Of a stretch of 64,000 bases of DNA, positions 35,801 through 58,880 are shown one piece after another (within the stretch, counting starts at the first letter, position 1; every line of letters starts with the position of its first letter). Under the pieces are notes generated by a model. It was given only the letters and a program-made list of their open reading frames with translations. It ran no database searches and was not told the DNA's origin. Location: positions 9,640,601-9,704,600 of the forward strand of contig OY987237.1 in assembly GCA_963920705.1 (NCBI GenBank), given 5' to 3'. The translations under genes were made by a program, and so were the position numbers. The DNA comes from Odiellus spinosus. Taxonomy: Eukaryota > Arthropoda > Arachnida > Opiliones > Phalangiidae.

Positions 35801-37379
35801 TTCTAGGTTTTTACCAGTACCGGAGAGTGCAAACTTCGATTTGGCGTGCGAGGTCGTAGTGCCGGTCAAATGCAGAGGCCCACTGGCGTTTCTGTGATGC
35901 CTAATGGCAATTACGTAGTCGCCGATTATGAAAACAAATGGGTTAGCATTTTCGAACCTAATGGAAAATTCGTTAATCGAATTGGTACCGGTAAACTACT
36001 GGGACCTAAGGGAGTGGCCGTCGATAAAAATGGCCACATTGTAGTGGTTGATAACAAAGGAAGTTGCGTACTTATTTTTCAAGTAAGTTTTATTTAAATA
36101 CTTTCGGGAGTTACTTTAATTTAACTTCAATTCATTATTTTGTAGGAAAATGGTAAATTGCTGTACAGATTTGGATCTCGAGGTAACAGCTACGAAAAAT
36201 TCGCTGGACCTCATTACGCCGCCGTCAACAGCAAAAACCAAATTATTGTGACTGATTTTCATAACCATTGCATCAAACTTTTCGACTGCGAAGGGAATTA
36301 CTTGACGTCATTCGGATCGAACGGCGAAGGAAACGGCCAGTTTAACGCCCCTACTGGTATCGCCGTGGACTCTCAAGACAATATCATCGTTGCTGATTGG
36401 GGGAACAGCAGAATTCAGGTAATAAAAAATCATAAGCCTTTGGTGTTAAATCCAAGTGATCTGGCATGGTGGGCTGTATTGTGTTGTTTTTTAGTGAACA
36501 ATCATGCTACGCGCACTTCCCTCCATTTTTGCACTTGTGGGTTTGATTTCGTTCGATTTGAGTTATTTGCTTTCATCTGAGTTCTTTTTTTCGTACATTT
36601 TCCTATGAACCTTTAAATGGTAGTGAAACTAGTCGCGCGCAATTGCTTTGATAGTGCACAAACTTCCTTCCATTACTTGCACTAATATTGCATCACGTGT
36701 TGTTTTTGGTTTCATCAGTGTTCAATATTTCATCCATTTTTTTCCATTGAATCTTTCGACAGTAGTTTTGGTTTCGTTAAACTACATGTAGTTGCTTTTC
36801 AGTGCACAATCATGCTACACGTATACTCCCCTTGATTATTTGCACTTATACTTCGATATCTTGGGTTATTTAGTTGAGTTGAAATATTTTTATCGGTGGT
36901 CAATGTTTCATCCATTTTCCTTTGAATCTTTCGATAGTAGTTTTGGTTTCGTTAAACTACTTATAGTTGCTTTTTAATGCACAATCATGCAACACATATC
37001 CTCTCCTTGATTATATGCAGTAATACTTTGGGTATTTGGTTGGTTTGAAATGGTTTCATCGGTGGTCAATGTTTCATCCATTTTCTTTTGAACATTATGA
37101 TTTTATTTTGGCTTGTGATTTCACGTGAATTAGTTCTAATAGCTCATCAGCGTTCCATGTTTCATTCATGCATATTCCTAAGAATCAGCAAATGATGGTT
37201 TTAAATTAATTTTCACAAAAAAAAAGGTTTTCGACTCGAATGGTTCCTTCTTGTCTTTCGTGAACACTAACGGGGAACCATTGTATGGACCTCAAGGCTT
37301 AGCATTAACGTCTGATGGCTACGTTGTGGTCGCCGATTCTGGCAACCATTGTTTTAAAGTGTACAAGTACTTACAATGA
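17886..37379 (+). CDS. TRIM2/3: TRIM2/TRIM3 orthologue (RING, two B-boxes, filamin, NHL)
   Basis: Coding exons: 17886-18302, 33032-33283, 33653-33943, 34122-34706, 35244-35687, 35807-36082, 36146-36418, 37227-37379. All junctions are phase 0 with GT/AG ends and give 896 residues from the first open codon. Domains by that numbering: C3HC4 RING 128-168 (CGIC..., [13 protein letters not shown]), B-box 1 at 201-238, B-box 2 at 263-294 (CPKH, CSDC, HGGH), coiled coil about 300-450, filamin-type Ig domain about 465-565 ([21 protein letters not shown]), six NHL repeats about 620-896. The end, [18 protein letters not shown], nearly equals that of vertebrate TRIM2. TRIM2/3 proteins are cytoplasmic E3 ubiquitin ligases, prominent in neurons, whose NHL propeller binds targets. 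The frame is open back to an acceptor at 17885, so an upstream exon is likely. An internal ATG at 18099 with A at -3 is the alternative start. Intron 1 is 14.7 kb. Confidence 0.95.
22939..23038. mobile_element. Foldback element, ~100 bp
   Basis: The arms CGTCTGCTTAATTATTGAC and GTCAATAAATAAGCAGACG are near-perfect reverse complements. Inside them TTCACC...GGTGA and CTTAGATC...GATCTAA pair again around a short loop. There is no coding potential. It resembles the other hairpin MITEs in the window, but I found no second copy. Confidence 0.55.
24708..24770 (+). repeat. tRNA-like hairpin with inverted flanks
   Basis: ACATTAAAAAATAGGCCG and CGGCCTATTCTTTTAATGT are inverted arms differing by one base insertion. 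Between them lies GACCGTGGGTATGAACCCC, which resembles a T arm (G-rich stem, seven-base loop, C-rich stem) directly abutting an acceptor-like 3' strand. The D and anticodon arms are not recognisable, so this is not a working tRNA gene. The same plan occurs at 40523-40663. Confidence 0.45.
24792..27319. mobile_element. 2.5-kb element with long inverted arms, no transposase seen
   Basis: The left arm (24792-24999) starts GCGCTGTTGAAGGTTGAAAT and ends near AGCTCCAAGTTTCCCTTTAA. The right arm (27166-27319) is its reverse complement with an internal deletion (TTAAAGGGAAACTTGGAGCT to CCTTCAACAGCGC). About 2.2 kb of AT-rich DNA separates them. No transposase motif is visible; a 97-codon minus-strand frame at 26946-26653 is the longest inside and matches nothing I know. 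It could be a decayed DNA transposon or two oppositely oriented copies of a short repeat; related sequence at 11340-11459 supports dispersal. Confidence 0.5.
27707..27724 (+). repeat. Run of 18 G
   Basis: An uninterrupted G tract follows a short imperfect tandem repeat of CTTTCCAGAA-type units (27640-27700). In such AT-rich DNA a G18 run is rare and could form a G-quadruplex or be a polymorphic slippage site. Confidence 0.9.
28800..29436 (+). repeat. 27-bp minisatellite with higher-order structure
   Basis: The unit GGGCTGGTTTATTAATTAGA plus AAACTCT (27 bp) is repeated over about 640 bp. Units at 29008-29170 are almost identical. A variant block (GGGGCATGTTTTTAATTAGA, then CTGGGCTTGTTTTTATTAGA) appears near 28895 and again near 29186, about 290 bp apart, showing that several units were duplicated together. 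Because 27 is divisible by three, it creates an open frame with repeated A-G-L-L-I-R-K-L-W, which I regard as an accident. Confidence 0.92.
30165..30431 (-). mobile_element. ~290-bp MITE, family B, copy 2
   Basis: This is an inverted copy relative to 11459-11757. It starts GCGTTCATACTAGGCCTTGG and ends AAGACCGTAGC. Shared internal blocks include CGTTTCGCTGGAGTAGTGTG and CCGATTCGGTTTCAACAAC. It lies in the large TRIM2/3 intron. Confidence 0.75.
31048..31067 (+). repeat. AAT trinucleotide microsatellite
   Basis: A short run of AAT/ATA triplets lies just downstream of AAATACGAAAT. It is ordinary simple sequence. Confidence 0.8.
34971..35168. mobile_element. piggyBac-like MITE, family A, copy 4 (deleted centre)
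   Basis: It is bounded by TTAA-AGGGAGAAAGCAACC (TTAA at 34971-34974) and GGTTGCATTCTCCCT-TTAA (TTAA at 35165-35168). The left and right arms are present but the central hairpin region is gone, giving a 198-bp copy. It lies in the TRIM2/3 intron between the exons ending at 34706 and starting at 35244. Confidence 0.85.
36470..37170 (+). repeat. Degenerate ~150-180-bp tandem repeat in last TRIM2/3 intron
   Basis: Four imperfect units can be recognised by recurring CACAATCATGC(T/A)AC (near 36494, 36803, 36980, and a weaker form near 36657) and CAATGTTTCATCCATTTTC followed by TTTGAATCTTTCGA and GGTTTCGTTAAACTAC. Together they make up most of this 808-bp intron. Confidence 0.75.
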
Positions 37380-39519: not shown

Positions 39520-42500
39520 ATGAAATTGAAGATCGATACCATCACAACCACTGCCGGAATATTCGGAATTGTAAGGTTTCATTATAATGACATACCGTAA
39601 TTTTGTTTATATTTTGAAGTGTTTTATATTATGTAAAGATTCTTAGTCTTCTTATTCTGGCATGGGATCTTTTCTTTCTCTTCGTTTGCTATCAACCCTT
39701 GGTTTTTAATGACCGCATGATATCTTGGCTAGCATTTTTCTACGCCCAAGTTCAAGAAATACAATATGGTAATTTTACAATTTCATAAGTATTATAATAG
39801 ATATAAGTATGACATTTTCCATTATTAGACGAGGTGTGTTTCTCTGTGATAAAAATACTTCCATTATTTTAGTTTTAAATAGTAGAAACCGTTTTTTTTT
39901 CCGTAAGAAGTTTACTAAAACACTGTGCTTTCTGAATTAACCTCTGACTTTCCCCTTAATACTATACTTTGAAACGCACCATGACTAAATACTTTTTTAC
40001 TAATTGAGAGACTTAATTCTGGATTAAAAAGTATTGATATTTTGCGCCACGATTTAAGGTGTCAATGCGGTGGTAATTATAAGTACCTTTATCAACTTTC
40101 TTTGGCTCGTTAGTTCCGTTGGAGCACTCCTTTCTAACAAATTTTCGGTTTGTTCTAAACCTTTTAATTAGTAATTAATATCAACCAATAATAAATACGT
40201 ATTATGATACCTAGAAATCAAATGCTACTGGTTTAAGAATATGGATAGGCGTAACTTTGCTCGTGGTCTTCTCGGACATCTCAATGACTTTATTCATTAT
40301 TTTGGCCAATTCGGTAATATTTAATTATATATCTTCATTTTTGGATTCAATAATCCAAGGACTGCTGTCACCTACTTTGTTTGAACACTGATTTTACGTT
40401 GATCCGGGAAGTCACGTAGAAAATTACTAACAAATATTAAGCTAGAAATCAATTAACTTACTGGGAAAGTAGGCTTAACAAGAATTCACTGTGACTACAT
40501 TTATGATGACATAGCTAACCAAGTTACGGGCTGGCTAGTACCCGATAGATGTTACAATTATCACCACCCGTGAAAAAGATGTTAAGTCACGCCCTGTAAG
40601 CGGAAGGTTGTGGGTTCAAATCCCACCCGTGACTTAACATCTTTTTCACGGGTGGTGATAATTCACTGTGAGTTTGAAATCTCAACGTTAAATAGTCTCC
40701 GACCAATCACGCGAGAAGCCGACCCTTTATTCTGATAGTAGAACGTTTCAAACAAGGCTTAAGTTGGTCGGAGACTGTTTAATGGCGAGATTTCAAACTA
40801 TCCGTGGATACTTGTTAAGCCTACTTTCAGATTAAGTTGAGATTTGATTTCTAGAATTATATTTGGATGTAACTAGTGAATTAAATCTGTTTTAATAATA
40901 ACGAATCAATAGAAAAACATTTATTTACTGTCAGGCTAAAGTTTTAACAACTCACTTTTGAAAGTATAATATCAATAATGTTTATAGTTGTAGTGTTTAG
41001 CTTTACCAAACTATGACAAATAAATTTGCGGAAGTTGTAAAACTAGATTTTACAAGTGGATTTTTTTGAAAGACGCTTCTTTAGTTTAAAACTAAGTATG
41101 TGACAGTCCACCAATAAAATATTTGGGACTAACCGACGCTCATAATAATTACGCAGGTTACTTTCGAAGACTTATTTCGATCCGATAAGAAATTTCTTTC
41201 GAACTTTAACAGTACGGCTGTCGATATAGATATCGTGGATATCAGTGTATATGCTGATAATTTGGATACCGATGTAGCGTACAGAGGTTACTGGTTGTTT
41301 ATTGTCGGACTGAGTCGTTTTTTTCTCATCAGTATTTTGGTCAATGTAGGTTTTTCGGTTTCTGGGAAACATATACGGTGAACTGATTAATACACGTCAT
41401 ATGCAAATTAAATGGCAGTTTAATAGCGGTTGAGACATGATTGTAATCGACTAAGTTCCGCCCGAGAAGGTAGATTCCCAAGTTGTGGGTGTTGATTACA
41501 CGCACAACGCCAATTCTTGAGTAAATTATGATATCTTGTCGAACCCAAATAACGTTAAATTCCTTAAACCCGATTCCTGAAGGCTTATCGTTGATCGATT
41601 GCTACTTCCGCTCTATGCCAAGTACAACTAAGCCTAATTTCCTGTTATACATAAAGACCGGATATTTAACTTCATATCTGAGGTATTATTTAAGGTCTCG
41701 AATTAATCTTTGACGTTTCACCCCATGTTTCCCTTTTTTGGGGTCAAAAAACCATACATTGACAACATTTATTACAATAATACCAATTTTCCGATTTATA
41801 TAGCTACCATTAGTATATTTGGCTAACAAAAGGGTTCGCGAAATTCGATTAAACGACAAACAACAAAGTAAAGAACGGTTATCGAAGGTATTATTGATCA
41901 AGTCAGTGATAGAATAAAACTTTTCGTACGTAAAGGCTTTAAATTTTTTAGGGAAGCTCGTCCAATTTCTACGACAATATGGCATTCGCTGGTAGAAAAA
42001 CTCCTAACATGTACGCCGAAACTCCCATCGAGGTTAACGAATTACAGGATCGCGATAGCAACAATTTAAAAACCCTTGACGACAAATGGGCGCAACCAAT
42101 TATCAGGACTGAAACCTTTGACGATGACAAATGGACGGAACCAATCACAAGGACTGAAACAGTTGACCCTGTTGTACCAAATCGCTTTAGATTGTCGCGA
42201 GCGCCGCAACTTATTCATCGTACCGAGAGCGAACGACGTTCTTCAGCGAGAAATTACGACCTTAATATTGACGCCGTGCCAAGGGCCAATCCTATTCCTC
42301 ATTCGCAGACCAATGGGAGCTTACCCAAGGCCCCGGCCATGAGGATCAATCTGATGCCCGTCAATAGATATAGCAATAAGATTTATCCGGATGTGATGCC
42401 ATATATACCGGATGTGGATTACGATGACGTACCGGATACTCCTCCTCAAACACCACCACCACCTCGTATAATGAGTAATGGATTTGGATATAAGGAAACT

Positions 42501-43173
42501 CCGACGACTAACCCACTCTACGCGACAATATCTAAGCCTAATTCTAAAAAAGTGCCCCAGAAATCGCCCAACACGTTCCAGACATTCGTTAGTACTCTTT
42601 ATAATACTTAATGGACCGTATCAATAACCTATAGAAGTACCTAAGAACGTGGGAATTAGCCTTATCCTTTGTTATCGTCCTCGTATACTTGGGTACTAAA
42701 ATGGGTTCTTGGCTGTACGTAATAAGAATACAAGAGTCATATTCCAAAATTATCAGAATTATACTTATAAAGCGTAAGGGTTCGTTAAGCAATTGGTTTA
42801 AATTCTTTCTTCACTTCCTAATAATTCTATCACACTTGACGCTTGTATTCAAATATTCTAATACAAATCGTCTACAATATACTTTCACGCAATTGAATCG
42901 AAACCTATTGAACGTTTTATGAATTCTAGGATAGACCTAAATCTAATTCTAACCAGATGAACCCCATGAATGGAAATGGTCCATATCCTCCTGAATTTTT
43001 CGATTATAAAGAGCAAAGACCAGGTTTGTTTGGAAAGGCGTTTTTGGAAAGTATAAGTTGAATTACAGATATTGGTATTCTAACTTTATTATTCCGTAAA
43101 ACCTACAATTTTAATTTAATAAACGTAACATCATTTTACTGTAGGAAATATTGGTGGACACAGGAGATTGTGA
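39520..43173 (+). CDS. Four-transmembrane protein P1 with long tail
   Basis: Exons: 39520-39570, 39639-39768, 40059-40147, 40215-40313, 41157-41345, 41804-41887, 41952-42587, 42957-43023, 43145-43173; about 457 residues. Reading exon 7 through its donor instead gives a stop at 42611 (433 residues). Membrane spans: TM1 across exons 1-2 (AGIFGI-ILSLLILAWDLFF), TM2 in exon 3 (VVIISTFINFLWLVSSVGAL), TM3 in exon 4, TM4 in exons 5-6. The second outer loop is the longest of the cluster and has an N-S-T glycosylation site. A basic KRVREIR follows TM4. The tail carries a 15-residue direct repeat (DDKWxxPIxRTETxD), a Pro-rich patch (DTPPQTPPPP) and a terminal GNIGGHRRL. I do not recognise the family; exon phases match P2-P5. 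The 3' two exons are inferred from their match to P5. Confidence 0.75.
40495..40659 (+). mobile_element. tRNA-related insertion (SINE-like) with 12-bp target duplication
   Basis: The segment is flanked by identical AATTCACTGTGA copies at 40483-40494 and 40660-40671. Inside, GTTACGGG (40523-40530) and CCCGTGAC (40626-40633) can pair as an 8-bp acceptor-like stem with one G-U. TGGCTAGTACC resembles a pol III A box and GGGTTCAAATCCC is a good B box and T loop. CCTGTAAGCGG just before it looks like a tRNA anticodon-loop 3' side. The span of 111 nt is too long for a tRNA because an extra ~38 nt, including one arm of the 36-bp inverted repeat, sits in the middle. It could be a short SINE or a rearranged tRNA pseudogene. 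Confidence 0.6.
40556..40663. repeat. 36-bp perfect inverted repeat around a T-arm loop
   Basis: Arms 40556-40591 and 40628-40663 are exact reverse complements (AATTATCACCACCCGTGAAA... against ...GGTGGTGATAATT). The 36-nt loop holds the tRNA T-arm-like GTGGG-TTCAAAT-CCCAC. A perfect repeat of this length implies recent origin or gene conversion. Confidence 0.9.
42078..42167 (+). repeat. 45-bp in-frame tandem duplication in P1 tail
   Basis: Two 45-bp units encode DDKWAQPIIRTETFD and DDKWTEPITRTETVD. A third, shorter R-T-E-S occurs about 19 residues later. The duplication lengthens the cytoplasmic tail without shifting the frame. Confidence 0.85.
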
Positions 43174-43776
43174 AAACAAAGTCCGATGTACGAAACCTTT
43201 TAGGAATTTGATATTTTCCAAATTCAAGTCCCCAGTCCAGTTTATACAGATATACTATCTACAAGAGTGGATTAATTTATTTCAGCAAAGCGTAATTATT
43301 TTATATTAGCATGCGAGTCATGCCAGATCGTCCTATAAAGAAATGTAAATTACAATAATGACAATTCGAATATGTGTATATACAGTATAGTGTCATTAAA
43401 ACGATAAGTATTAAGGGCACTTTTTTTTAGCCAATAGAGAAGGTCTTACCCCTGACACGTAAACCTTCAATTATACCATAAATGGATCATCTCTAAGCTA
43501 CACAGTTCGAATTAAACCGAGAAAAAGGGTTCGACATTGATGGTTGAAAACATGGAATAATAACCCATCTGGGTTGTGTTTTCTCCCTGTAGGTCAAAGG
43601 GGTTTGTTTCCGAGTATCTGTTTTACCTTTCCATTAAAAATCATAGGTAAGGGTAATAGTTAGTGTATAGGGACGCAACTACGAATGCTATCCCCTACCC
43701 TCCCACGCAGTTCAAATAACAATTCTTATAAATCATACACTGAGCTGAATAGATAAACTTTTTATATTAAACTTAA

Positions 43777-44054
43777 GCTACGGTCACACTAGCATTTCTT
43801 AATCGATTTGAAACGATAAAATGAAACCGATTTTCAAATCGCCATGAATCGTTTTGAGCCTCTTGTGTTCACACATTATCTTTATAAATCGATTTATTGT
43901 AGCCTCATCTATCGTTTGTTGAAACCGAATCGGTATGAACCTCAGAAATCGAATCAAATCGATTCAAGAAGAGACGGTTTCCGTTCACATTATTCCAGCG
44001 AAACGTTTTCAAACGGTTTAAATCGATTCCAAGGCCTAGTATGAACGCGGCTAT
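43777..44054 (+). mobile_element. ~290-bp MITE, family B, copy 3
   Basis: It starts GCTACGGTCACACTAGCAT and ends CCTAGTATGAACGCGGCTA. It lacks the block GGTTCCCGAAGCAGTTTCG present in copies 1 and 2, which accounts for its shorter length. Confidence 0.8.
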
Positions 44055-44068
44055 ATTATTTACATAGT

Positions 44069-44071
<3 letters not shown>

Positions 44072-44103
<32 letters not shown>
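44072..44103 (+). repeat. Run of 32 T
   Basis: A pure T tract lies just downstream of the family B MITE and is followed by ACAG. It is simple sequence with no clear role. Confidence 0.9.
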
Positions 44104-44106
<3 letters not shown>

Positions 44107-45072
44107 GATAGAAAAACAAAAAATTTTCGAGCCGAGGCTTTTATTTTAGTGTTATTTTAATTGAGAACCAGTCTATACTATTATTATTATATCCGTTTAG
44201 AAGTAACGGTTATAGTAATTCTGCGATACTGACAAATCCAGGTGAAATAATCTATATAATTTATGGTTAAATTGTTCTTTAAGAGCGATTAATTTTTTCT
44301 AGATCGAAAGCTTAACATTTGTTTTAAACTGATCTTGAAAAAATTCCTGGTACTGTGTGTAGCTTTACGTATGACAAAAATATTTTTCATTACCTAGGTT
44401 GTTTAATTATAATTTCACGATCCTATGGTATTTATGCTACTATTTGTAATGGAAACTTCAACTTAGATTACTTATGAGTACAATGGTTTCATTGTTAACT
44501 CATCTGCTTCGTTTTTATATATTAAAAAAATAAAAAAAGATGGTAACATTCGCGTTTAATTTCAATATCCTCTATTGCAAAGATCAGTTCGAAGGAAAAG
44601 AACAGTCTTATAAATAACATACGTAATTAGACATAGAAAACCGTTTCGATAATTATAATATTAATATTATTATTAATTATAAGTATATTAAACGAAATAG
44701 CATCCATATATTACTGCACCTCAGGTACTTCTCATCTAAACATCATGTGTTACATGATAACAAGAAAGCATTCAAAGTGTTTTTCGAAAGCGGTATCACT
44801 TACTATACGATTACAGCAATATTTAGGGTGTCCTTTCTCTTTAAATATATTATGTCGACGTACTTTTTCTTCCACCGTGTTGTTCATTCGGCAGCTGTAT
44901 GCATTCAAGGATCATTTCAGTCTAGTTACGTTCAATTTCGACTAATTGGAAAATGAAATAATGCCGTTATTCTTCTTTGACAATCCTACCGATTCGGTTT
45001 AAACACTAATACGCGACTATTATCCTTTCGTTTTTCAATTGTTCGAGTATTTTAATCAAATAATCAATCACT

Positions 45073-47113
45073 ATGAACATTATCTGCGATTGTTGGAGAA
45101 TTCGAACATTGACTTTTGTTTGCGGTCTGCTGGGATTCGTAAGTTTAGAACTTGACATTTTATTCGTACCATACCTGTAATATATTTGCATTGTACGTAT
45201 ATATACTTTTATTCTAGATTCAAGGCTTTATTAGCTTTGCCATTGGCTGTTATTTCTGTACTTTATACCTTACGGATTACATACCAACCATTTTGAACTT
45301 TCCAATATGGGCTATTATAACTCGAGGAGTTACCATTGGATTTGACGATAGTATGTTTTTTTTTTAATATAAAATGCATGTAGCAGCAAACCATTTTCCG
45401 CAGCTTGGTGAAAATTACAATTAACCTTCTCTTAAAAATGTTTCGAATCTTGAAAGTTCTAAGGAATCGGTTTTAAAACAATATTTAATTTTCCTTTCCT
45501 TGATTGAGCAGCCATGAAGGGACTGATACCAACAGTAACCGTGGTTAACTTTATATGGACGATTTCATCTTTGTTTCTACTTCTTGGAAATTTCGTATGA
45601 ATTAATTACATTTACAAATTTACAAAGGTTGATATATAATTCAGTAATTTTCTTAATTCTGTAGCTAAATCGCGTCCTTGGTTTGACGCAATGGGTCGTT
45701 GTTACCGTCATTATAACCATATTCGACATCATCATCATGATCTACTTTATCACAATGACATCGGTAAATTTATATACTTTAAATTAAAAACTATACCACC
45801 TAGCATAAGGAGTTTAGTATGTAAGGAATTAAGTAGAGCCAATAGGGGAATAGTGACCTCAAAGTTCACGTTTAATTTCATTGTCCGAACAATCCTTTGT
45901 CACGCAGTTCTGAATCAAGTCTTAGAAAAAGTGTGAGACCGTCATTTATCGATGAGTTACACTTTAAATAGAAGTTTATTAACTTGAATTATACGAACTG
46001 TAATGCCACATTTCCTGTCTTTGGGCGCTAATAAGTAGGTTTTTAATAGATAGTGATAGAATCGTTCTCGTGCAAGAGTAATCATTTGCTTACCAATATT
46101 TGAGAACATGACTCGGAAATATATCAGATGTTTACCCTTCCTAGCTTTTACCAAGTCAAGCTTTAACTTATGGTCTACCGTAAACATCTCGTTTGTTTTA
46201 ACCCTGTCTTCATTAAATGACAGGACATACTAAGCAACTTATTTGGCTGGGAGCAGGGAACGGATCTCACCAGAGAAGAGCTGGTTCAGGGATATGTCAT
46301 GTTGTTGTTCGTTTTTGGAAAATTCGGTCTTCTTATGTGGCTAGTCAATGTAATCTGGATATTTAAATAGAAACTCGAGAAAATTCTAAAATTTTAACAT
46401 TTTCAGTTCTACTTGGCGTACATTGTTTACAGGCGAGCTATAGAGCTTTTGGATTCTTTCAAAACGGTCATTATTTTAACATTTATAAGTAAAAGATTAC
46501 AAAAACACAGAGGCATTTCCCAACCATTATTAAAACCCAATTATTATTTCGAATTAAAAAAATCCTAAAGTTGTTTTAATTGCTGCTCCTGAGAGGCTTC
46601 TTGCTTAATTTGGCCATTAGTAATCTTGGATTAACTTTGCAATATATAGTACCAATGAGACATGGACCATAGACTACAGAAATCTTGCTTTTGGTCTTTG
46701 GCTCATTAGAAAGAAATCACCAATAAGGGACCAACGTTAATCAAACGATTGCGCAGAAACCATCCAAGGGGCTATTTCTAAAGTAGGCGAAGGTTTCTTA
46801 TGTCCAACGCCCGTTCTTCGAATGAAAGCAAAACTGACCGAATATGTGTCTTTAGTAATCTTAGGTTTTAAGGATTACGTCTGTCAAATGAATGAAAATG
46901 TAACGTATAATGTTACAGGAAGAAGAGCAAAACTCGTATATAACATTGGAAACCAAGTCGGTTCAGATAGGCTCGACCAATTCGTCTTTTCCAGTTATAA
47001 GCCCAATTAACGATCTCTCTAATAAGGTAACAGATTGGGGTGGAACTCGAGGTACAACTCAGTCCAGATTACTAGATAGTCGAGGTTACCTTTCGGACGG
47101 AGTTTGCTACTAG
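45073..47113 (+). CDS. Four-transmembrane protein P2
   Basis: Exons: 45073-45138, 45218-45350, 45512-45594, 45665-45763, 46224-46349, 46407-46466, 46919-47113, joined in frame to 253 residues. The N-terminus MNIICDCWRIRTL is Cys-containing. TM1 spans exons 1-2 (FVCGLLGF-IQGFISFAIGCY), TM2 is in exon 3 (VTVVNFIWTISSLFLLLGNF), TM3 in exon 4 (WVVVTVIITIFDIIIMIYF), TM4 in exons 5-6 (VMLLFVFGKFGLLMWLVN-FYLAYIVYRRA). Exons 1-4 keep the lengths and phases of the paralogues; exon 5, carrying the second outer loop, is 42 codons. The 64-residue tail is Ser/Thr-rich and ends GVCY. The exon 6 donor (AAAACG-GTCATT) is weak and is the least certain joint. AATAAA at 47147 follows the stop. The function is unknown; a membrane scaffold or tetraspan role is only a guess. 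Confidence 0.78.
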
Positions 47114-47146
47114 CCAGATTTGAATTTGTAAATAATATCAGAAGCT

Positions 47147-47152
47147 AATAAA
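47147..47152 (+). terminator. Poly(A) signal AATAAA for P2
   Basis: A canonical AATAAA lies 34 nt after the P2 stop codon, a normal position for a short 3' untranslated region. Confidence 0.55.
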
Positions 47153-47780
47153 ACGTCTTTTGAAGTTTACTAAATTTTGCCCGGGACTAGTTCAGCCTTT
47201 TCTGACGGAGTAGATTTTTCGGAGCGAGAGTTAAGGTTCGACTGTAGTGTTTAGAAAAAAGTAAACGAGTTAATGTACGCGGAGTTCTTGTCCGACTGGC
47301 GAATAGAAATTGGGCATTTGGGTGGGGGCGTTGTCTAAGGTTTATTACTATGTCGATCCACCGTCAACAGTAGCTTTAAAAGCTTAACTAAACTTCTTTA
47401 TTGACTGAATTGGAAAAAACTAACAGTAGCGCAGAACTAATAAACTTCGAAGGACCTTCATTAACTTTTGATTAAGTTTCGTTTGTATTTATTGTAAAAA
47501 GTTTCACTTTTTATTATAGTTAATAATCCAAATAAACATATTTTATAAAAAAATCGTTTAAATAATTTAAGATTTGTTCTAAGATTCGTGTTTGCTGAAT
47601 TCAGAGGAAATAATTGGGGACACCGCTCGTGTGGCATGTCCGTGGGAGGAAGGACAATATGAAATCTCGAACCAAATTGGTTGTGAAATATATTTTTGAT
47701 ATAATTTTGTGTATTAAAGGGCGGCGTCAGGTTAATCTGATGGCTCGATTTTCCCCTTAGAATAAAATTCAATGAAAATT

Positions 47781-47880
47781 AATTAAGCCTAATTTTAAAC
47801 GTCGAATAAGCCTAATTTAAAACGTCGAATAAGCCTACTTTCAAACGTCGTTTAAGCCTAATTTCAAACGTCGATTAAGC
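47781..47880 (+). repeat. 23-bp minisatellite, 4-5 units
   Basis: The unit AAGCCTAATTTCAAACGTCG plus A(T/A)T is repeated four to five times with few changes. Confidence 0.88.
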
Positions 47881-48750
47881 GGGCTGATACATAATGTTGG
47901 ATATTATAGAAAAGAAGTAGTTGTTGCCAACTTCTTTTGATAATGATAATTGCTTTCCCTTCGCCATAATAACAAATAACGCTTCGCGTACTGTTTTTTG
48001 TTTGGTATCCTCTCCCTTTTACCGATGATAAAGCGAAAAGGCAGGGTATTTGTCTAAAAAAATTATAAGTAATAAGAAAACAAACGCAATACCACGTATT
48101 AGCGCTGTATCCAACTAGAATACACCAATCGATACTCGACTAAAACCGGGGTAAGAATATACACTCTATGTATCCTTGTGTTTTTCTTTCTCTCGATCAA
48201 TTTTACCCTAGACCAAGATGATGGAGTTAAAAGGGCATGTACAGCTTTTGCTTTTGGTTTAAGGTAAGATTGTATAATAAATGTACATCTACCCCCTCGT
48301 CGGAAACTCGTTTCATTCAATATTACATTGCCACCCCCATTATCCCCTTCCTTTTCAAACCCTCTTCTCCTATACACTCTCTCATTCTCGTATGGCAATC
48401 TGCGCGGCCGTGAGTAAGCGAGAGGCTAGCTTCGAAACCTCCCTCCATTTGCGTGCGGCCTCCAAGGCAACGCGAAGCTTCGCTTTAGCCGCCACAGTTT
48501 CACGAGTTCACTATTAGAAAATGAAGTTTCCTTAAAATATTAATATTATTGATTCGCGCCGTTGTTGTGCACAAGTTGGAACTTTTTATTCGTATGTATT
48601 ACATTATTAATGGTACATTACGTACAATTTTACGCCTAGTAACGCGATCTCTTTGTAGACATTCGATACTTGGGTGACTCACCGCTAGGGCGCCTAGCTA
48701 TTGTTGACTCGCTCTACTCGGTCAGCTGTTTTTCATTTGAATTTATAAAC

Positions 48751-50813
48751 ATGGGCTGTTGCGGTTGCGCGTTGTATGGCTCGGCTATTACAGCCGGTGT
48801 GCTTGGAATTGTAGGTATTTTTTATTTTTTTTCCTAATTTTCAGCTTCTAAATTTTAACGATTTTAGATTCAAAGCTTCCTCTATCTTTTGATGTCGATC
48901 CCGGTTGCCATTGTTCATTATTCCTATTGGAGGAGTTACGATTCTAAGGATTGGTACGCCCTCCAGGACCCCGTGAAATATCAAATCGATTTCATTGGCT
49001 TCCTAAGGATTAATACGGGTCTTAACTCTCTCCAATTTTTGTTTGTAACTTGATACACATTCCTGGTTTGTGACTCAAACGTGTCATTCCTCTGTTTTAG
49101 CTGTAAAAACCATGGTAATCGTGACCATGTTCTTCAACATTTTGTGGCTATCGTCCTCCATCGCTTTGCTTGTGTCAAATAGGAAGAAGGTACTAAATAT
49201 TTTACGTACTGTACCTCGTAAAATAGCTAACTTTGGTTGTCAGTGAGTTAGGAACAGTAACGACGACGGGACGAAAGTGTACCACCATATACACATGTTA
49301 CAGGCCTATGTGTAGACCAAAATATGAAATTCCTAAAAAAGCATTTAAACTTCAACTTTAAAAAGTTTTCAAAAAACAACAACTGATTACTATATGTAAT
49401 GTCATGTAAAAAGCTAAGCCTAAGTCACGCGTATAATTTTGGCTTTGTTAGAAACCCAACGCCAACGGGGTATTCCAATGGGCAGTGATAACATCCATTA
49501 TGACGGCTTGCGAGATGATTTTCTCATTTTACCTCATAAGTATTGGCTCGGTACGATAATCGTCAGAATTTTATATTTTAGTTTTTTTGCTTTGCATTGA
49601 CAGCCATATCTCAATTTATATTGTAGGATCATGTAGATTCTGGTTATCCAGTATTTTACCGAAGTTTTTTCTTTCTCGATTTGGCTTCAATTAGTCGTGG
49701 ATATGGAGTATTATTCGGATGGTGCTTCAACGTAAGACTGTCCCAATAATTACGCAGCATATGCCTAATTAATCTTTTAATATTTTTTTTTTTAGATACC
49801 ATTGACCGTTTTTGTCTACAAACGCTATCGAGAAATTCGTAAAATGAAATTGGTACTTATCAAATTTACTTTAAACAGCACCAAAATCGTTGTTTTATAG
49901 CTAAGGGTGCTAATCTACCTTTCATCGTAAAAATTATAAGTATTTTGACGCAACCTAAGGCATAAACCAGTGTGGAATACAATATGGCTTCGCCAAAGCT
50001 TAGTTAACGCGTCACCAATTGCGTAGACAATGGGTCACCAAGACTTAGTCAATGGGCCACCAAGGCTTAGTTAATGGGCCACCAAGGCTTAGTCAATGGG
50101 TGACCAAGGTTTAGTTAATGGGTCACCAAGGCTTAGCCAATGTGCCACCAAGGCTTAATTTGACACCAAGACTTGGTAATTAATTTTTTATCAAATGTTA
50201 ATTAATTCGTCACCATTACTTAATTAATGGCATTGCCAAGGTTCTCAGAAATATTTCAGACGAGCTATAACGAGTCTATAACTTATCAATGCTTAGATTA
50301 TCCAATTGAGATAAATTATTTTCGAATAAGCCTCGAGGTGCGTTAAAATATATAAAGAATCTATCCCACAAAAGGGGTCATTTCCATACTGAGAAGAAAG
50401 ATTTCCTTTCATTGTAATAATTCAAAGTATTTCGACGTAAACTTGACAAACGTTTTGGTGGTGATATTTTAGAGGAAGGCCTTTGTTTTTAATAACAAGC
50501 CCGCGTAACGCGTCTTTCTCAGGAAAGGCAAACCTCGGACACCGTACCACTTAACCCGCAGCCCGAGGGACCAGTATACCCGAACCCACAGAGGCCTTAC
50601 GCCATGGTGCCTCTAGAATATTTGACTCAACAACAGCCCCCTCAATGGGCCACCGGACCTTACAACCCTCAATACGTACCGGCTCCTTATCCGGCCTTCC
50701 AGCCGCAACCACAAGTCTATCCCAATGCTCCGCACGACATTGGAATCGGTGGAAACCAGTCTCAAGACAGTAGCGATTGTCACGAGATTCCCCTGGTTAA
50801 AGCCCAGGCCTAA
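48751..50813 (+). CDS. Four-transmembrane protein P3 with Pro/Gln-rich tail
   Basis: Exons: 48751-48810, 48868-49018, 49101-49189, 49452-49550, 49627-49731, 49796-49852, 50523-50813, joined to 283 residues. All splice sites are GT/AG with phases 0,1,0,0,0,0. The N-terminus MGCCGCALYG is Cys-rich and begins Met-Gly-Cys, so lipidation is possible. TM1: AITAGVLGI-IQSFLYLLMSIP; TM2: MVIVTMFFNILWLSSSIALL; TM3: WAVITSIMTACEMIFSFYLI; TM4: GYGVLFGWCFN-IPLTVFVY, then basic KRYREIRKMK. The tail of about 96 residues is rich in Pro, Gln and Tyr (TGPYNPQYVPAPYPAF), like adaptor-binding or low-complexity tails. It is closest to P4 in the first exon and the TM4 region. Intron 6 contains a 22-bp minisatellite. 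The family is unrecognised; the Cys-rich start loosely recalls LAPTM-type proteins, with no further support. Confidence 0.85.
49990..50180 (+). repeat. 22-bp minisatellite in P3 intron 6
   Basis: The unit GGGCCACCAAGGCTTAGTTA plus AT occurs about eight times with variants (GGGTCACCAAG, GTGCCACCAAG). It lies just before the tail exon. Confidence 0.9.
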
Positions 50814-51781
50814 AAATCATGTTCCTTTATATACTGTATACAGTCTTACAAATACGTAAAATACACTAGATATTCATGAGTCTTTCGAGACAACGCCAAT
50901 ACTTCATTGAATGGCACAAAAAAATACTCTGAAACATTTTTCGACGTAACTATAAAATAGTTTTTAGTTTTTATTAGCTATAAGTGTAGCTTTAAACGTT
51001 TAGTTTAGATATTTGTATGTTTCTTACGAAAAATGTAAGAATTAAAATTTTTGTCTTCGAAACCAAAATATTTTTGTCGTTAATGCATTCTAATTCCACG
51101 CCAAAGCGGTCAAGGTAATTCTTTTATAATATACATTTATCTACGTATACATTAACGTACTTTAAAATTTAATTTTCCCTGTGCTTTTGTTTAAAGGCAA
51201 AAACGCTTAATTCGATGGGGAGGGTTCCTCACCGACATGACTTATTGCGTCTCAACTTTTTAGTTAAGAAATTCTTGCTTTGGAAGTTAAAGGCCCCTCA
51301 TGAGGGGACGCAGTTCTTTTTTTCGTGTAAGCTACTAAACTTGTTCAGCGCATCAGGGGGTATTTCTTAGGGTTTCTTCAAACCCAAGAGCGAGAATACA
51401 TTTCATTCTTCGCGATTGATACCTTGTGTAAAGACTAAACCATTTTAAATCTTTATTAAAAAGAACATATTTTGAATATCATTAAACGTAATATTATCAT
51501 AATTACACGCGTCCAATGCGCGTTGTTCTTATTTGGTTTTAATTGACCTTCGACTACTACAGGAAAATACCTTCATTAAATATTAGCCAAATTGTTATTC
51601 GCTGTAGAAAATAATCTGTATATAGCTACGGACTGTAATTAATGTTAAACTCAAGGTTGCTAGCAGTCATTATAGCTATGCAATATATATTAATTAAATT
51701 GTAAAGTTTTCTCATTCTCTCGCGTAGTTTAACTTTCGAGGCTTCTATCAGTTTCAGTTTGATATTAAATCTATAGTAAAA
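50814..51781. promoter_or_regulatory. P3-P4 intergenic region; possible P4 initiator
   Basis: I see no gene here. Near the right end two TCAGTT motifs (51748-51753 and 51754-51759) lie 23-34 nt before the P4 start codon. TCAGT is the arthropod-type initiator consensus, so transcription of P4 may begin here with a very short leader. No TATA box is apparent. This reading is inference. Confidence 0.35.
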
Positions 51782-53408
51782 ATGGGGTTCTGTGGATGTT
51801 CGTTGTATTATTCGACCATAACCGCGGGAGTACTTGGCATTGTAAGTACCGATTTGTTTCTTTTAAGTCTGATGCTCTAACGTTTTTGCAAGCGATCGTC
51901 GAAGTTACAACTCTTAGAAAAACTCTGTTGCAAAATAAAACTGTTTAGTTTGGATTAGAAGTCTTTACATTCTCGAACTTTTTTTGTGGTTGGAGATGGA
52001 TTCATTTAAGTAACGTCAAGAAAGCTTTGAAATAATACCTATAAACTTTGGGATACATGCAACATTAGTCTCTGGCACCATCCTCAAATAATTTTGTACT
52101 CCCAATTTGTTCTCTTTTTTTTTCACGGCCACACCTTTAAAAAAAAACGCTTCTGCAAAATCTGTACATCAATTACGCAATTACATACTCATTACAACCT
52201 TTGATAATGCTAAATACATAGTCATTGGTTCTTGGGTACTTCAATTGGTTCTTGGGTACTTCAATTGGTTCTTGGGTACTTCAATCGATTCTTGGATACT
52301 TCAATTTGTTCTTGGGTACTTCAATTAGTTTTTGGGTACTTCATTTGGTTCTTGAGTACTTTAGGTGGTTCTTTGCTACTTCAGGTGGTTCTTGGCTACT
52401 TCAATTGGCTCTTGGGTACTTCAATTAGTTCTTGGGTACTTCAATTGGTTCTGGGAAATGTCTAGCCAAGTGTAACAGTTAGCTAACGTAGGATGTTTTG
52501 ATTTTTTTATAGACCCAAAGTATTATATATTTATGCCTTTGCGTAGCAGTATGCATTGATCATTTCTCTCCGTTTTCATCAATTTATAACGGTGATTTAA
52601 AAACCAATCATTTTTACGAGACATCAAACTTGCATAGGATTCACACGGGTAAACATTTTTGATGGAAAAATTAACATTATGTTATGTTAATTTAATAATG
52701 TTTTAAATTTAATATATATATATAGCTATTAAGGTCATGATCGTCCCAACGATACTTCTCAATATCGCGTGGTTTATATCGTCCATATTGTTACTGTCTG
52801 GCAATGGAAAATCTGTAAGTTTACACAGATTGGTTAAAATTATTGTAAAAATGTTTTTAAGTAGATTCTATTCTATTCGGGCCTTGTCAAAAGTTGATCT
52901 CATTTTGACAAGGAGCTAATCAAGTTAGACTGCGTATTTACATTAACTTAAGCCTCGCTCTAATTCTAATTTCGTTACTAGAAAAGCAATCCTTCTAGAA
53001 TATTACAATGGGTTATTGTCACGGCTTTGATGACTACGTATGAGATGTTATGTACATTTCATTTTCTCATTATAGCTATTGTAAGTGTTAGTGATCATCT
53101 AAAAAAATTAACATTTTAATCTCCTGAATAATTTTAGGACAGTTTTGATTCCGTCGAGTACAAAGAATATTTTTTCCTCGACCTTGCGACAATTAGCAAA
53201 GGTTTTGGCATCTTTTTTGGATGGAGTTTTAACGTAATGAATTTAAAAACTAATTTAATCTTCTGTTTTCAAAATCGAAATAAAAAAAAATTGTACATTT
53301 TTAGATACCATTGGCCGTATATGCTTATAGACAATACAAAGTAATCATGAAATCAGGAAATAAGAAGGTATGATTCACTTTAATATTCGCATCCACACTA
53401 GAAATTGG

Positions 53409-53442
<34 letters not shown>

Positions 53443-53718
53443 AATTTGATTGGAACATTCAAAAATAGGTTGAAAACTATTTTTAAAGTTTCCTAGGGTA
53501 ATCGTAGTTTTCTTATTGTAGAGTTATTTAGATTTTCACTCTATTTATAGAACATAGAAACCGCGATGGAACTTTCCAGAGTGCAGCCCGAGACTCAAAC
53601 GTTCGAAACTCAACGTCTGTATCCTAGAACTTTCCCAAACGAACCAACTTCACCAGAGGTTAATATACCCCATCAATGGTCACAATCTGCTCCAATTAAT
53701 AATAACTATAATCTTTAA
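51782..53718 (+). CDS. Four-transmembrane protein P4 with short tail
   Basis: Exons: 51782-51841, 52513-52648, 52726-52814, 52982-53080, 53138-53233, 53305-53367, 53551-53718, joined to 236 residues, the shortest of the five. The start MGFCGCSLYYSTITAGVLGI is nearly the P3 sequence. TM1 continues as TQSIIYLCLCVAVCI; TM2: VPTILLNIAWFISSILLLSG; TM3: WVIVTALMTTYEMLCTFHFL; TM4: GFGIFFGWSFN-IPLAVYAYR. The FFLDLA(T/S)ISKG stretch before TM4 is shared with P3. Exons 1, 3 and 4 have exactly the P3 lengths (60, 89, 99 nt). The tail has 55 residues with Gln, Glu and Pro and ends NNNYNL. Intron 1 contains a 20-bp minisatellite, and intron 6 a run of 31 A. P3 and P4 look like the most recent duplicates. 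Confidence 0.85.
52225..52460 (+). repeat. 20-bp minisatellite in P4 intron 1
   Basis: The unit CTTCAATTGGTTCTTGGGTA is repeated about twelve times, nearly exact at the left and more varied to the right. As 20 is not a multiple of three, it opens all three forward frames, giving overlapping spurious reading frames. Confidence 0.92.
53409..53439 (+). repeat. Run of 31 A in P4 intron 6
   Basis: A pure A tract. It could be the tail of a lost retro-insert, but no body is visible upstream. Confidence 0.9.
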
Positions 53719-54620
53719 GTTGATTATCCTGGTCTTATGTTCTAAACGTTAGAACATGACGTTCGAAATTGCAAAGGTCTTATTAGTTCTATATGTTAGC
53801 TCACTTTATTCGATAATGTGCGGGCCCTAATCTTTAGAACATTTTTCATCAAATGTGAACGTCTTTAATCTTTGGATATTTTTCTCCAAATGTGACTCTA
53901 CTTTCTTCAGTTACATCTGAGAAAATTTCATTCGAAAATGTGAATGTTTTCATCGTTATAAACTCTATAACATGATGTTTTAAAATGTGATTATCTTTCA
54001 GCTCAGTGTTATATAAATTATGGTATTGACTATATCCAAGTCTTGTTTATCTTTCGATATTTACAACGACTAAGTAACGAACTGGATGTAATTTCATCTA
54101 CTTTCAATTTACAAAATCTCGCAAAAGGTAGTTTTCGATATTTGACTATCATTGAAGGGTTTTGAAGATAAGTTGTTATTTTTACCCTTTTTATTGAACC
54201 AGTTTTTGTAATTCTTGCAGAGTAAAACGTAGAAAGAATTTTATATTTTGAAAATAATTAAATCCACGTCGATAAAATTCATTGATGCATTATTAGTCAT
54301 TAGAATAATTAAAATTAAAATTTATGATGGTAATAACCGGGTGTTATCTGGAACAATACATTTAATAGTTTACCTCTATACATTTAAGCTAGCAATCTAA
54401 TCTGTTAATGCCAGTAAGCATCTTATCTTTCGATTGCATTTTTACCCCAAGTACCTACGGAGCGCTTGGCGGATCCAAAGCTCAATTGGTAGCCTTCATT
54501 TTAATATAAAAATCTGTGAATCCATTGTTTTTCGCAACTATGGAGACGTACCCGTTCTCGACTACATAAAATATATATTTAGAATTACTTTAAATTTAAT
54601 AGTTTACAATTTAAAACAAA
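53719..54620. other. Intergenic region between P4 and P5
   Basis: AT-rich sequence with a loosely repeated block containing TTTAGAACATTTTTC(A/T)(T/C)CAAATGTGA (53835-53900). There is no gene, and no clear poly(A) signal or TATA box. Confidence 0.6.
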
Positions 54621-57600
54621 ATGGGCGGTTCTTCACGGACTGTCCAGGGCGTCATTGCCGGTATTTTAGGAACAGTAAGTAGTTTTCATTTTACTAACGT
54701 CTTTGTTCAAACAACTAAAGTATTTTTAGTTTCAAATTTACTTGTTTATATCCCTCGGCTAAAGGTTTCTAGATGCTAAAAAATGAAACATTTTGATTTT
54801 ATAGACTTGAAACTATTCGAATTCAATTGTCCATTTTTGCGTTATGCCTATGGCCATCCCCAGATTAATGTTTAACTCATTTTAAATGGGTTTCCATAAA
54901 TTAATGTTATTTTAATATGAAAGATACTTTTGTATTGCTAATTTCGTCGTTTAAGCCAAACTAGTTTAACCATTTTGTTATTTACGTTTTAAACAGCTTC
55001 AAAGTCTGGCTTTTTTTGCCATGAACATCATACCGTGTTTGTATTACTTCGAAGCAATCGATAATGCAGATTCTTTGGGGGAATTTTTCACCGTTCGTTT
55101 TATAAACGGTTTTAAAGTTGGTAAGGATATTTTTGGTTATTGACTTGATAATGTTGAGTAGACGTTCGCGCAGATGTAGTAATAATCATAAAAACGTGCC
55201 AATATAATTACAAAATCAATATTTTCTGATTTCATAGGTTTAAGAGCAATGCTAGCGTCACAGACTGTCGTGAATGTCATCTGGTTATTATCGTCCGTCA
55301 TTCTAATCATCGGCAACTATACTAAAGTAATTGTTGCTAAGGGTGTCAAGAATTACTCCGCATTGCTTTAGTTCAAGATCAAACTTTTATTTATTTAAGA
55401 TTACTTTTAAAATAACCGATAGATTAATAGGTTTGAGAATATTATACAATATCGGAATGTTTGGCTATTGGAATAAATAGTAAAAGGTTATACAAATATT
55501 AATTTTAAAAGGCTAATGAAAGTAATTCTAGATGGTTTTAATATGTTTATTGAAATTAATTTAAAAAGGGCATGTATATTTATTGTGAAAGGTCATGGAT
55601 GTTATTTGTGAAAGGTCAGAGATATTATTTATGAAAGGTCAGGGATATTTTCAGAATTCAAAAACTTATGAACGAAAAAAAAATGATTTGATTTTAGGTA
55701 GCTTGTGCGGTTCGCCAGTGGGTAATCGTAACTACCATCGTCATTGTCACTAGTTTAATTTGTTGTTGCTATTACCTGGCGCAATCGATTCCCGCAATTG
55801 TAAGTATTAGAGTTTTGGCGGCAAAATTTAAGATTATAGCTAATATATTTATATCCTAAACAGTATAACGACGATAATCATCCTACGAATAGTTCCGAAA
55901 TCGGGACTACAGCTTCATTTTACGCGCCACAGGTAATTTGCATAATTGTTTTGGAAGTCGAAATTGTTGATCCTATATTATTCTTTAGACCGCTACTGAG
56001 ATTTCGTGGAAGGATAATTCAAAAGAATTCTCGTACCTTTTACTAGCCCTATCCAATGGAACCATAGTCTTCTGGATTTTAAACGTAAGCTTAGTTTTTG
56101 TACAATTGTTTCAATATTTAATAAATACTGGTGGCGTTAAAGACATTGTTTTTAATCCTTTATGGGTGCATTTCAATTTAATATTACAAATTTTAAAGGA
56201 AATCTCTAGATTTCTTCTGGGGTTTCTTGGAGACATGACTCTCTTGTTTCTTCAAGACATCTCTTGTTCTTATTGTCACTTATAATTAAACATATTATGG
56301 GGAAAACTTATCGCTAAAGTAATTGCAAGTCACCTCTTGGTCGTTTAACACCTAATTCACTCTATAAAACTGATCTTTTGCTATGTTTACTCGTTATAAT
56401 TTGTTGCACTTACTATATAACAGCCAAAATGACGATGTTTTTAAAAAACTTTCATATTCATATGCAAATTGAGTTGAATTTTAAAGTGTATACGTATAAT
56501 TTCAGGTAGTTCTTGCTGCGTTAGTACACAGCAGAGCTCGAGAAATTGCGCTGCAAGCCAAAGTTGTAGGTATCTTATAAATCATTATTTAAAATGTCCC
56601 GTTTTCCTCCTTGAATTCGAAACATTATTCGAAAATTAATTTATCAATTCAGAAACCTGGGTTCGGTATGACGGCTTTCGGTAACAACCAATCACCCACG
56701 AAGGTTCCGGATTCGCCAACGGACGACGGCGAACAACCATTTAAAAATGACGAAGAGAGAAAAGCCTATTTAAAAAAATTACAAAAACCACACTTGGATC
56801 CCGTACCTTATAGACGTACTGAACCTCCAGTTGCGGAAAACAGCCCAATACTTCCAAATAGATTCAATCAGTTTGACCGCGACGAAGAAGACGTACGTCC
56901 GGTTCCCTTGCCGCATTTGGGACGAAGTCCTTACAGTGAACGCCAAGATACGCAGTACCACGACGCGTTTGGTTCACCACCGAATTTGGACGATTCTGGT
57001 GCTAGTGATTCAAACTTTGTTTTTAAAAGAAAGAGTCTCTATACGTACGAAAACAATCCTGCAGGTATGGAAATTTTTGGATCACTAACTCCTGTGAACC
57101 GAGATAATTAAACCCAGTGTCTGGAAATATTCGAAAGTCTTCTAGAATTTTCCTGACGAATTGAAATAATATGAAATTATTAGTTTTGTATAACATGACT
57201 GGTTTAACCCTTGATTCTTCTTTGTGGTTCATTTTTTTTAAAGAATTATTCCATATTTTAATTATGTGTATACAGAAATCGCAAACAGAATGTCGAAGCT
57301 GGACCCAGTTAATGGTATTCGACGATATGATCAAGCGAGGCCGATGACTAACGTAGAACGTATCGAATCCTTACGTCATGAGGAATCAGCGAGGCCAGAG
57401 CGTCATGATTCGTCGCGGCGTCCGGAACAAGCTAGATTGGAACGCCACGATTCATCACGACTTAAGGAAGCTTTTCCACCATCATCCCGTGTTGAACGCA
57501 ACGAGTCCATGAATCGTGCGTCTAGACTAAATCCTCTAATTTATCATCCCACAGCGTTTGAGCCATTGGTAAGGTGGTGTAAATAATATAACCCACTAGA

Positions 57601-58880
57601 TAATTCAACACCGAGTTGGCTTCACGCGCAAAGCCGGACTCCGTCTGTCTATAAGAAAATAAATCACGGCGATTTATATTTAGTTTAGCGTTGAAAACGC
57701 TGCCAACTTGAGGTGGAATTTAATAGGATGCTGTTCAAAGTTCTCTTCGGTTCTGAACAATGAAATGCTTATATTTTTCTAGGGTAGACATTCCATCTCA
57801 CAGCCTGTTCACCCTCCGCTAGTTAGAGGGACCGGAGCAGGCAGAGAGTACAGCGGTAATTTGTCCGGTGATGAACAAATTCGAGAATCACAGAGACGTT
57901 TAAAACCAACACCCGAGAGACGGGGTTACCATTCTGACCTTGAATCGGACAGCAGATCTTCCTCTCCTAGAAACGTCCCCAATGGACATCGAGACAGGAT
58001 GGCACGATACGATAACCCCACCTTTGAACCCAGGGATGATGAAAGTCTCAACCAAAAAGGTATTCCGAGATACCAAGAGTACCCGGGCAATCCCAGACAA
58101 AGTTACGGTCTTCAAGATTCGTTCACTAATAGACGTCCCGAATATGACAATCGGGGATACGATAATTACAGAGAAGAAGGATACGATGGTCAAGGTAAAG
58201 CAAACATCTATTATCAATTAGGGTTAGATAATAACAAAGCTTAACTGAAATAAAGACCTAGGCCTACTTACTGAATTATCGAATATACAGGGTGGAAAAT
58301 CTAGTCCATATAAGTTTCTCTATCTGCGAGTGCAAAGTGAGGATATAGATTTGTGGCTTTTAAGCGGAAGTACAGAGATAATTAAGATTAGCCTATGTTG
58401 GGATGTGTGCTACTGAAATTTTATAATGTCACAATATTATAATATTTCATTATTATTGTAACATTGTAGTAAAACTTTTCATATTCTAAGAATTATTTAA
58501 GAATTTTTAAATGCCCTTTTAGTTAATTACTTTTGTTTAGACATACATATACTGTTGAGAAAAAACACCACGTCCATTTTTTCATCTTCTAGTGAATGGG
58601 GGAATTGAACCTACCCATAGTACTAAAAACTCTATCATCTCCTCAAAGAACAAAAAATTAAGGTTTACATTTAACTGTGTTTGTCAAACTTACTTGTACA
58701 CTTAAATCTAAATTTGTACGAGAAAGATTGTATTATCATTTTCAGAACCTTGGTCTTTTTTGTAGGGATGATGGGTTTTTCACTTCTCCCGATGTATTTG
58801 AACCGCCTATTATTCGTTTACAGGCTTATAATAATAAAAATTTCATTCTAGGTTACAACAGAGGGCCAAGGCGATACTAA
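54621..58880 (+). CDS. Four-transmembrane protein P5 with very long charged tail
   Basis: Exons: 54621-54674, 54997-55120, 55238-55326, 55698-55799, 55864-55932, 55989-56084, 56506-56562, 56653-57064, 57276-57568, 57783-58194, 58852-58880, joined to about 578 residues. TM1: VIAGILGT-LQSLAFFAMNII; TM2: TVVNVIWLLSSVILIIGNYT; TM3: WVIVTTIVIVTSLICCCYYL; TM4: LLLALSNGTIVFWILN-VVLAALV. The second outer loop is split over two exons and has an N-S-S glycosylation site. After SRAREIALQAK the tail runs for about 380 residues: charged, probably disordered, with ERxxS-type repeats (RPERHDSSRR, LERHDSSRLK, VERIES, VERNES), a PNRF motif shared with P1, and a terminal GYNRGPRRY. The exon 7 donor (GTTGTA) is weak. 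Reading through exon 8 or exon 10 gives alternative stops at 57111 and 58244. The function is unknown. Confidence 0.8.
58249..58254 (+). terminator. Intronic poly(A) signal, possible alternative P5 end
   Basis: AATAAA lies 4 nt after a stop (58242-58244) reached if the exon 10 donor at 58195 is not used. It would give an isoform ending LGLDNNKA in place of GYNRGPRRY. Confidence 0.35.

Follow-up and report, generated by a model that had tools for sequence, protein, structure and literature searches.

The question raised by positions 39520-58880 of a 64,000-nucleotide stretch of the Odiellus spinosus genome (contig OY987237.1; the whole stretch is referred to as the window) is whether five neighbouring genes for four-transmembrane (four-TM) proteins form a family of their own or belong to one already described. 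These genes, termed P1 to P5, form a tandem array on one strand, and all five are open and can be spliced. The favoured reading, held with slightly better than even confidence, is that they are tandem diverged paralogues and make up a branch akin to the tetraspans of the DUF4728, Pasiflora and Fire exit type, without the Pro-Trp (PW) motif of that group.

Gene models and exon organisation

The gene models are predicted from the DNA, with exons joined by reading frame and GT-AG junctions. All five lie on the forward strand, with GT-AG introns throughout and no internal stops. The exon positions are those of the spliced models.

39520-42611, forward strand: P1, four-TM gene of 7 exons and 433 amino acids with a tail exon of 219 codons (spliced model and paralogy); exons 39520-39570, 39639-39768, 40059-40147, 40215-40313, 41157-41345, 41804-41887, 41952-42611
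45073-47113, forward strand: P2, four-TM gene of 7 exons and 253 amino acids (spliced model and paralogy); exons 45073-45138, 45218-45350, 45512-45594, 45665-45763, 46224-46349, 46407-46466, 46919-47113
48751-50813, forward strand: P3, four-TM gene of 7 exons and 283 amino acids with an MGCCGC start and a Pro/Gln-rich tail (spliced model and paralogy); exons 48751-48810, 48868-49018, 49101-49189, 49452-49550, 49627-49731, 49796-49852, 50523-50813
51782-53718, forward strand: P4, four-TM gene of 7 exons and 236 amino acids (spliced model and Pfam); exons 51782-51841, 52513-52648, 52726-52814, 52982-53080, 53138-53233, 53305-53367, 53551-53718
54621-58880, forward strand: P5, four-TM gene of 11 exons and 579 amino acids with tail exons of 381 codons (spliced model and Pfam); exons 54621-54674, 54997-55120, 55238-55326, 55698-55799, 55864-55932, 55989-56084, 56506-56565, 56653-57064, 57276-57568, 57783-58194, 58852-58880

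A first-pass annotation of the sequence had described five same-direction tandem genes with a common exon plan, and the spliced models confirm this. The plan opens with a short exon and has a phase-1 junction ahead of the TM2 exon; a TM3 exon, a varying outer-loop exon, a short exon for TM4 and its boundary, and the tail follow. The TM2 exon, previously put at 30 codons, has that length in four of the five genes (89 nucleotides, including the phase-1 base) and is 83 nucleotides long in P2. The TM3 exon is 99 nucleotides long in four genes and 102 in P5, in agreement with the 33-34 codons proposed. The intron phases 0,1,0,0,0,0 hold for P1-P4; for P5 the list omits four further introns, of which one, of phase 0, interrupts the second outer loop and the other three fall within the tail. 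The contrast drawn between a fixed core and a variable outer loop and tail was upheld: exon 5 spans 32-63 codons in P1-P4 (P1 63, P2 42, P3 35, P4 32), its counterpart in P5 is divided over two exons of 23 and 32 codons, and the tail exons code for 55-381 residues (P1 219, P2 64, P3 96, P4 55, P5 381).

Repeats are present within and beside the genes. Intron 4 of P1 contains nested inverted repeats (window 40424-40872) with a perfect 36-nucleotide pair at 40556-40591 and 40628-40663, as in a miniature inverted-repeat element. A tandem repeat of 45 bp (1.9 copies, 83% matches; window 42081-42167) lies in frame within the P1 tail exon, where a DDKWxxPIxRTET unit is seen by eye to be repeated. 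Intron 1 of P4 holds a minisatellite at 52224-52452 with a 20-bp unit in 11.4 copies. A dispersed repeat occurs in three copies in the window (11458-11750, 30166-30424 and 43775-44048), 80-87% identical and in both orientations; the last of these sits between P1 and P2.

Common origin of the five genes

On sequence comparison, P1-P5 are diverged paralogues of common origin with a predicted four-segment hydrophobic core. BLASTP, run with the low-complexity filter and composition statistics off, aligns the cores at 22-45% identity in best local stretches that are 113-204 residues long, with expectation values (E) of 1.5e-9 to 2e-55. When one partner was shuffled with its hydropathy classes preserved, the real score was reached in 0 of 300 shuffles for each of the 10 pairs. 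P3 and P4 are the closest pair (45% identity), followed by score by P2 and P5. A hidden Markov model (HMM) of the five proteins was run over the window translated in six frames (2868 stretches), and 29 hits passed the inclusion threshold. Each of them overlaps P1-P5 exons, and a sixth copy was not found within the window by this six-frame search.

Membrane segments and conserved motifs

By hydropathy (19-residue windows, cut of 1.2), P1, P3 and P5 each show four segments; P2 shows an additional, weak fifth and P4 no more than three. The TM4 segment of P4 is assigned on the basis of homology to P3 and not of hydropathy. The NxxWxxSS signature of TM2 is kept in all five proteins. The earlier description of TM2 as W-rich was not borne out, as the alignment shows one invariant Trp only. 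The Trp which opens TM3 is also invariant, and is preceded by Ile in P1 and by Gln in P2-P5. A basic motif after TM4, ascribed to several members, takes the form R-x-R-E-I in P1, P3 and P5 and is absent in P2 and P4. The Cys-rich N-terminus noted for P3 and P4 is pronounced there, although P2 also has two Cys near its start.

At the boundary of TM4 and the tail, the alignment places VHS in P5 only, AYRQY in P4, ANK in P1, VYR in P2 and VYK in P3. With loop bounds set by the authors, the first outer loop is the larger in P2, P3 and P4 and the second in P1 and P5. The second loop contains one sequon in P1 and one in P5 and none in P2-P4, and the two sequons are compatible with that loop lying outside.

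Probable kinship with DUF4728

A kinship of the core with the Pfam family DUF4728 (PF15860, model length 91) is supported by profile matches below the curated cut-off of 26.7 bits. One study lists DUF4728 among the families common to tardigrades and arthropods (PMC5531438). In the Pfam HMM search which the first-pass annotation had recommended, the matches of the full-length proteins are all sub-threshold: DUF4728 is listed for P5 (16.2 bits, E 0.017) and P4 (10.5 bits, E 1). The isolated cores score better, with DUF4728 as the best match of both P5 (19.4 bits, E 0.0017) and P4 (15.8 bits, E 0.023, over model positions 3-88 of 91). The best unaltered score, 21.8 bits, comes from an 80-residue P5 TM2-TM3 fragment; its E-value of 0.0003 is flattering, because the fragment was picked after the result of the full-length scan. 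Among TM2-TM3 pieces of 61-63 residues, that of P5 matches at 19.9 bits. The consensus of the family matches DUF4728 at 16.2 bits in the forward direction and not at all when reversed. In a shuffle test performed on P5 alone, none of 20 hydropathy-class shuffles of the fragment matched DUF4728. The exons concerned are as follows.

55238-55326, forward strand: P5 TM2 exon, 89 nucleotides, NxxWxxSS signature
55698-55799, forward strand: P5 TM3 exon, 102 nucleotides, with RQW aligned with the place at which DUF4728 prefers PW
52726-52814, forward strand: P4 TM2 exon, 89 nucleotides
52982-53080, forward strand: P4 TM3 exon, 99 nucleotides, with LQW at the place at which DUF4728 prefers PW

A PW motif opening TM3 is common to Pasiflora1, Pasiflora2 and seven further Drosophila members, according to PMC4582180. 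To ask whether the DUF4728 model prefers PW at the QW of P4 and P5, Pro was substituted at or around the residue before the invariant TM3 Trp, and the sequences were rescored against DUF4728. Directly before the Trp, Pro raises the 62-residue P5 piece from 19.9 to 25.0 bits (+5.1), the P5 core from 19.4 to 24.4 bits (+5.0) and the P4 core from 15.8 to 21.1 bits (+5.3). Misplaced by one residue in the P5 core, it lowers the score to 17.8 bits (-1.6) when earlier and to 16.6 bits (-2.8) when later. A gain at one place suggests that the DUF4728 model holds PW there, which supports the register of the TM2-TM3 alignment and links DUF4728 with the PW family through what the model itself contains. 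The shuffles and the Pro substitutions bear on P5 and P4, the shuffles on P5 alone.

Several results weigh against this kinship. None of the five full-length proteins reaches 26.7 bits, and unaltered scores range from 10.5 to 21.8 bits. Unaltered P1, P2 and P3 have no DUF4728 match, either at full length or as TM2-TM3 pieces, and neither does the 63-residue TM2-TM3 piece of P4 alone; at full length, P1 and P3 have no Pfam match of any kind and P2 has only a weak one to DUF2754. Other models at times score higher, as with DUF4153 for the consensus (16.6 vs 16.2 bits) and TSP_C for full-length P4 (14.2 vs 10.5 bits). With one shuffle of the P5 fragment, a model of no relation to DUF4728 was hit at E 0.0021, and such E-values thus arise by chance in hydrophobic pieces like these. 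Insertion of PW brings P2 to only 10.5 bits and leaves P1 and P3 still without a DUF4728 match. Replacement of the Trp by Ala abolishes the match, but no family at all is then listed, and the HMMER filters may share in this loss. The strict mark of the Pasiflora/Fire exit proteins, PW at the start of TM3, is missing as Pro is found there in none of the five proteins; P1-P5 are for this reason not filed as Pasiflora-family members and are called a related PW-less branch. Furthermore, DUF4728 is presumed to be the Pasiflora family, with the PW preference of the model in favour, and no publication stating so was found.

On balance, P1-P5 probably represent a diverged offshoot of a family already described, and not an entirely new family. 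The earlier label of an unrecognised family is probably too strong, given that the nearest family is DUF4728, at sub-cut-off scores and with a model preferring PW at TM3.

Alternative explanations

The alternative which survives best, although it is considered doubtful, is that P1-P5 form an arthropod tetraspan family apart from DUF4728, the likeness arising solely from constraints on packing around NxxWxxSS and the TM3 Trp; such a family would organise membrane domains and have no role in septate junctions. The three members of five lacking an unaltered DUF4728 match, the absence of PW from all, and the E of 0.0021 obtained by one shuffle with an unrelated model are in keeping with such a family. 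However, the isolated P4 and P5 cores find DUF4728 as their best match on the same TM2-TM3 columns, Pro strengthens the match only directly before Trp among the three places tried, and 0 of 20 shuffles match DUF4728.

It is unlikely that some copies are decaying or are spliced otherwise than modelled, for example as shorter P5 isoforms. If retained, the P5 introns after exons 8, 9 and 10 would introduce in-frame stops ending at 57111, 57586 and 58244, and exon 6 of P2 has an unusual GTCATTAT donor; against this, the five models stay open in all their exons, the junctions are GT-AG and the exon plan is preserved.

Claudins (PF00822) carry the signature GLW..C..C in the first outer loop, and in tetraspanins the second loop bears CCG and Cys pairs. 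P1-P5 share the four-TM layout of claudin, tetraspanin, MARVEL and LAPTM proteins, and P3 and P4 have a Cys-rich start, but a relationship to these groups is disfavoured as very improbable: none of their Pfam models matches the five full-length proteins at E up to 10 with HMMER filters on (the LAPTM likeness suggested earlier thus gains no support), the profile of the family finds no PDB sequence with E of 1 or less, and GLW..C..C and a Cys in the second outer loop, as bounded by the authors, each occur in none of the five.

In NCBIfam, none of the five alignment members (P1 and P5 as cores) had a match with E of 1 or less. Searches with exact peptide patterns confirmed none of 24 stretches from viral contigs for the P3 core, and patterns from the P3/P4 alignment confirmed none of 77 stretches from viral contigs and none of 105 from genome contigs; these collections are non-animal, and the results say little.

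Predicted function

Septate junctions form the barrier of invertebrate epithelia. By analogy with their relatives, P1-P5 are predicted probably to work like the pasifloras. PMC4582180 describes Pasiflora1 and Pasiflora2 as core components of septate junctions, required for the barrier, with four TM segments and predicted inner ends, and proposes that they act laterally within one membrane. Both ends of P1-P5 would likewise lie in the cytoplasm, and the cores may line up next to one another in the plasma membrane as ribbons or microdomains of the septate-junction type. The outer loops and tails (tail exons of 55-381 codons) would then be adaptors recruiting different partners, each copy thereby serving a different tissue or junction type. 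Constancy of the core alongside variation in the outer loop and tail agrees with a single packing unit to which different adaptors are attached. The junction or septum scaffold suggested by the first-pass annotation points in the same direction as the best relative found (Pasiflora/Fire exit), with the function itself predicted from that relative.

A more tentative proposal, to which a rather low probability is given, is that, through the long tails of P1 and P5, small ribbon proteins of the Pasiflora type became scaffolds specific to particular tissues, making the PW-less subfamily a junction toolkit not found described in the literature searched. An array that keeps the membrane core and varies loop and tail is suited to separating the parts of a tetraspan that pack in the membrane from those that select partners. 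Should the kinship be true, the Pasiflora-type family would extend beyond the PW motif.

Genomic surroundings

The window contains 80 open reading frames of at least 75 amino acids, and 20 frames were taken to Pfam. Exons of a TRIM-NHL gene lie upstream of P1-P5 on the same strand, and those of an EamA-type transporter lie on the opposite strand.

33032-33316, forward strand: TRIM-NHL gene, RING half (Pfam)
33620-33967, forward strand: TRIM-NHL gene, B-box (Pfam)
35244-35753, forward strand: TRIM-NHL gene, filamin and NHL (Pfam)
35807-36094 and 36146-36577, forward strand: TRIM-NHL gene, NHL (Pfam)
13963-14556 and 14990-15295, reverse strand: EamA-type transporter exons, the first above the Pfam cut-off and the second just below

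The open frame 17886-18407 looks by eye like a TRIM-NHL first exon that carries the remaining RING half, and has no Pfam match; if it is that exon, an apparent intron of ~14.6 kb separates the RING halves. In Drosophila, the pasiflora-family gene CG15098 may lie near the TRIM-NHL gene CG15105, a putative microsynteny for which no paper with both genes was found. CG15098 has three introns according to PMC5495518, which does not decide the matter.

Ten further open reading frames outside the cluster have no Pfam match at E up to 0.01, and Rfam reports nothing at the gathering threshold on the window. The six-base seed match of miR-184 occurs at six places on the forward strand of the window: two in coding exons of P4 and P5, one in a P5 intron, one ~770 nucleotides past the P5 stop and two elsewhere. 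This neither supports nor excludes regulation by miR-184. Further repeats in the window are a minisatellite at 28803-29429 (27-bp unit, 23.9 copies) and a self-complementary repeat element at 15966-16429, with similar pieces at 5303-5618, 15340-15441 and 35027-35177.

Comparison with known systems

Claudins share with P1-P5 the four-TM layout and the junction setting of the nearest relatives of P1-P5, but differ in the GLW..C..C signature, which P1-P5 lack, and no claudin Pfam match is listed. For the cores of P4 and P5 taken in isolation, no model scores better than DUF4728, with the TM2-TM3 register fixed at the Trp, whereas its cut-off of 26.7 bits lies above every unaltered score (10.5-21.8 bits) and P1-P3 are unmatched.

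The Fire exit family of Drosophila has nine members, and little is known of those other than the two pasifloras, according to PMC4582180. As described there, these proteins resemble P1-P5 in the predicted four-segment core, the Trp opening TM3 and the low identity among members, but their Pro before that Trp is missing in all five. The same source gives VxSQYQ at the TM4/tail boundary of Pasiflora1 and VxS in Pasiflora2, and its sections on the motif do not report it for most of the wider family. The VxS of Pasiflora2 is matched by V-H-S in P5, and the QY of Pasiflora1 by Q-Y at the aligned place in P4. In Pasiflora1 and Pasiflora2, as far as that source describes them, the first outer loop is the larger, whereas in P1 and P5 it is the second; the two pasifloras are also shorter, at 169 and 258 amino acids against 433 for P1 and 579 for P5.

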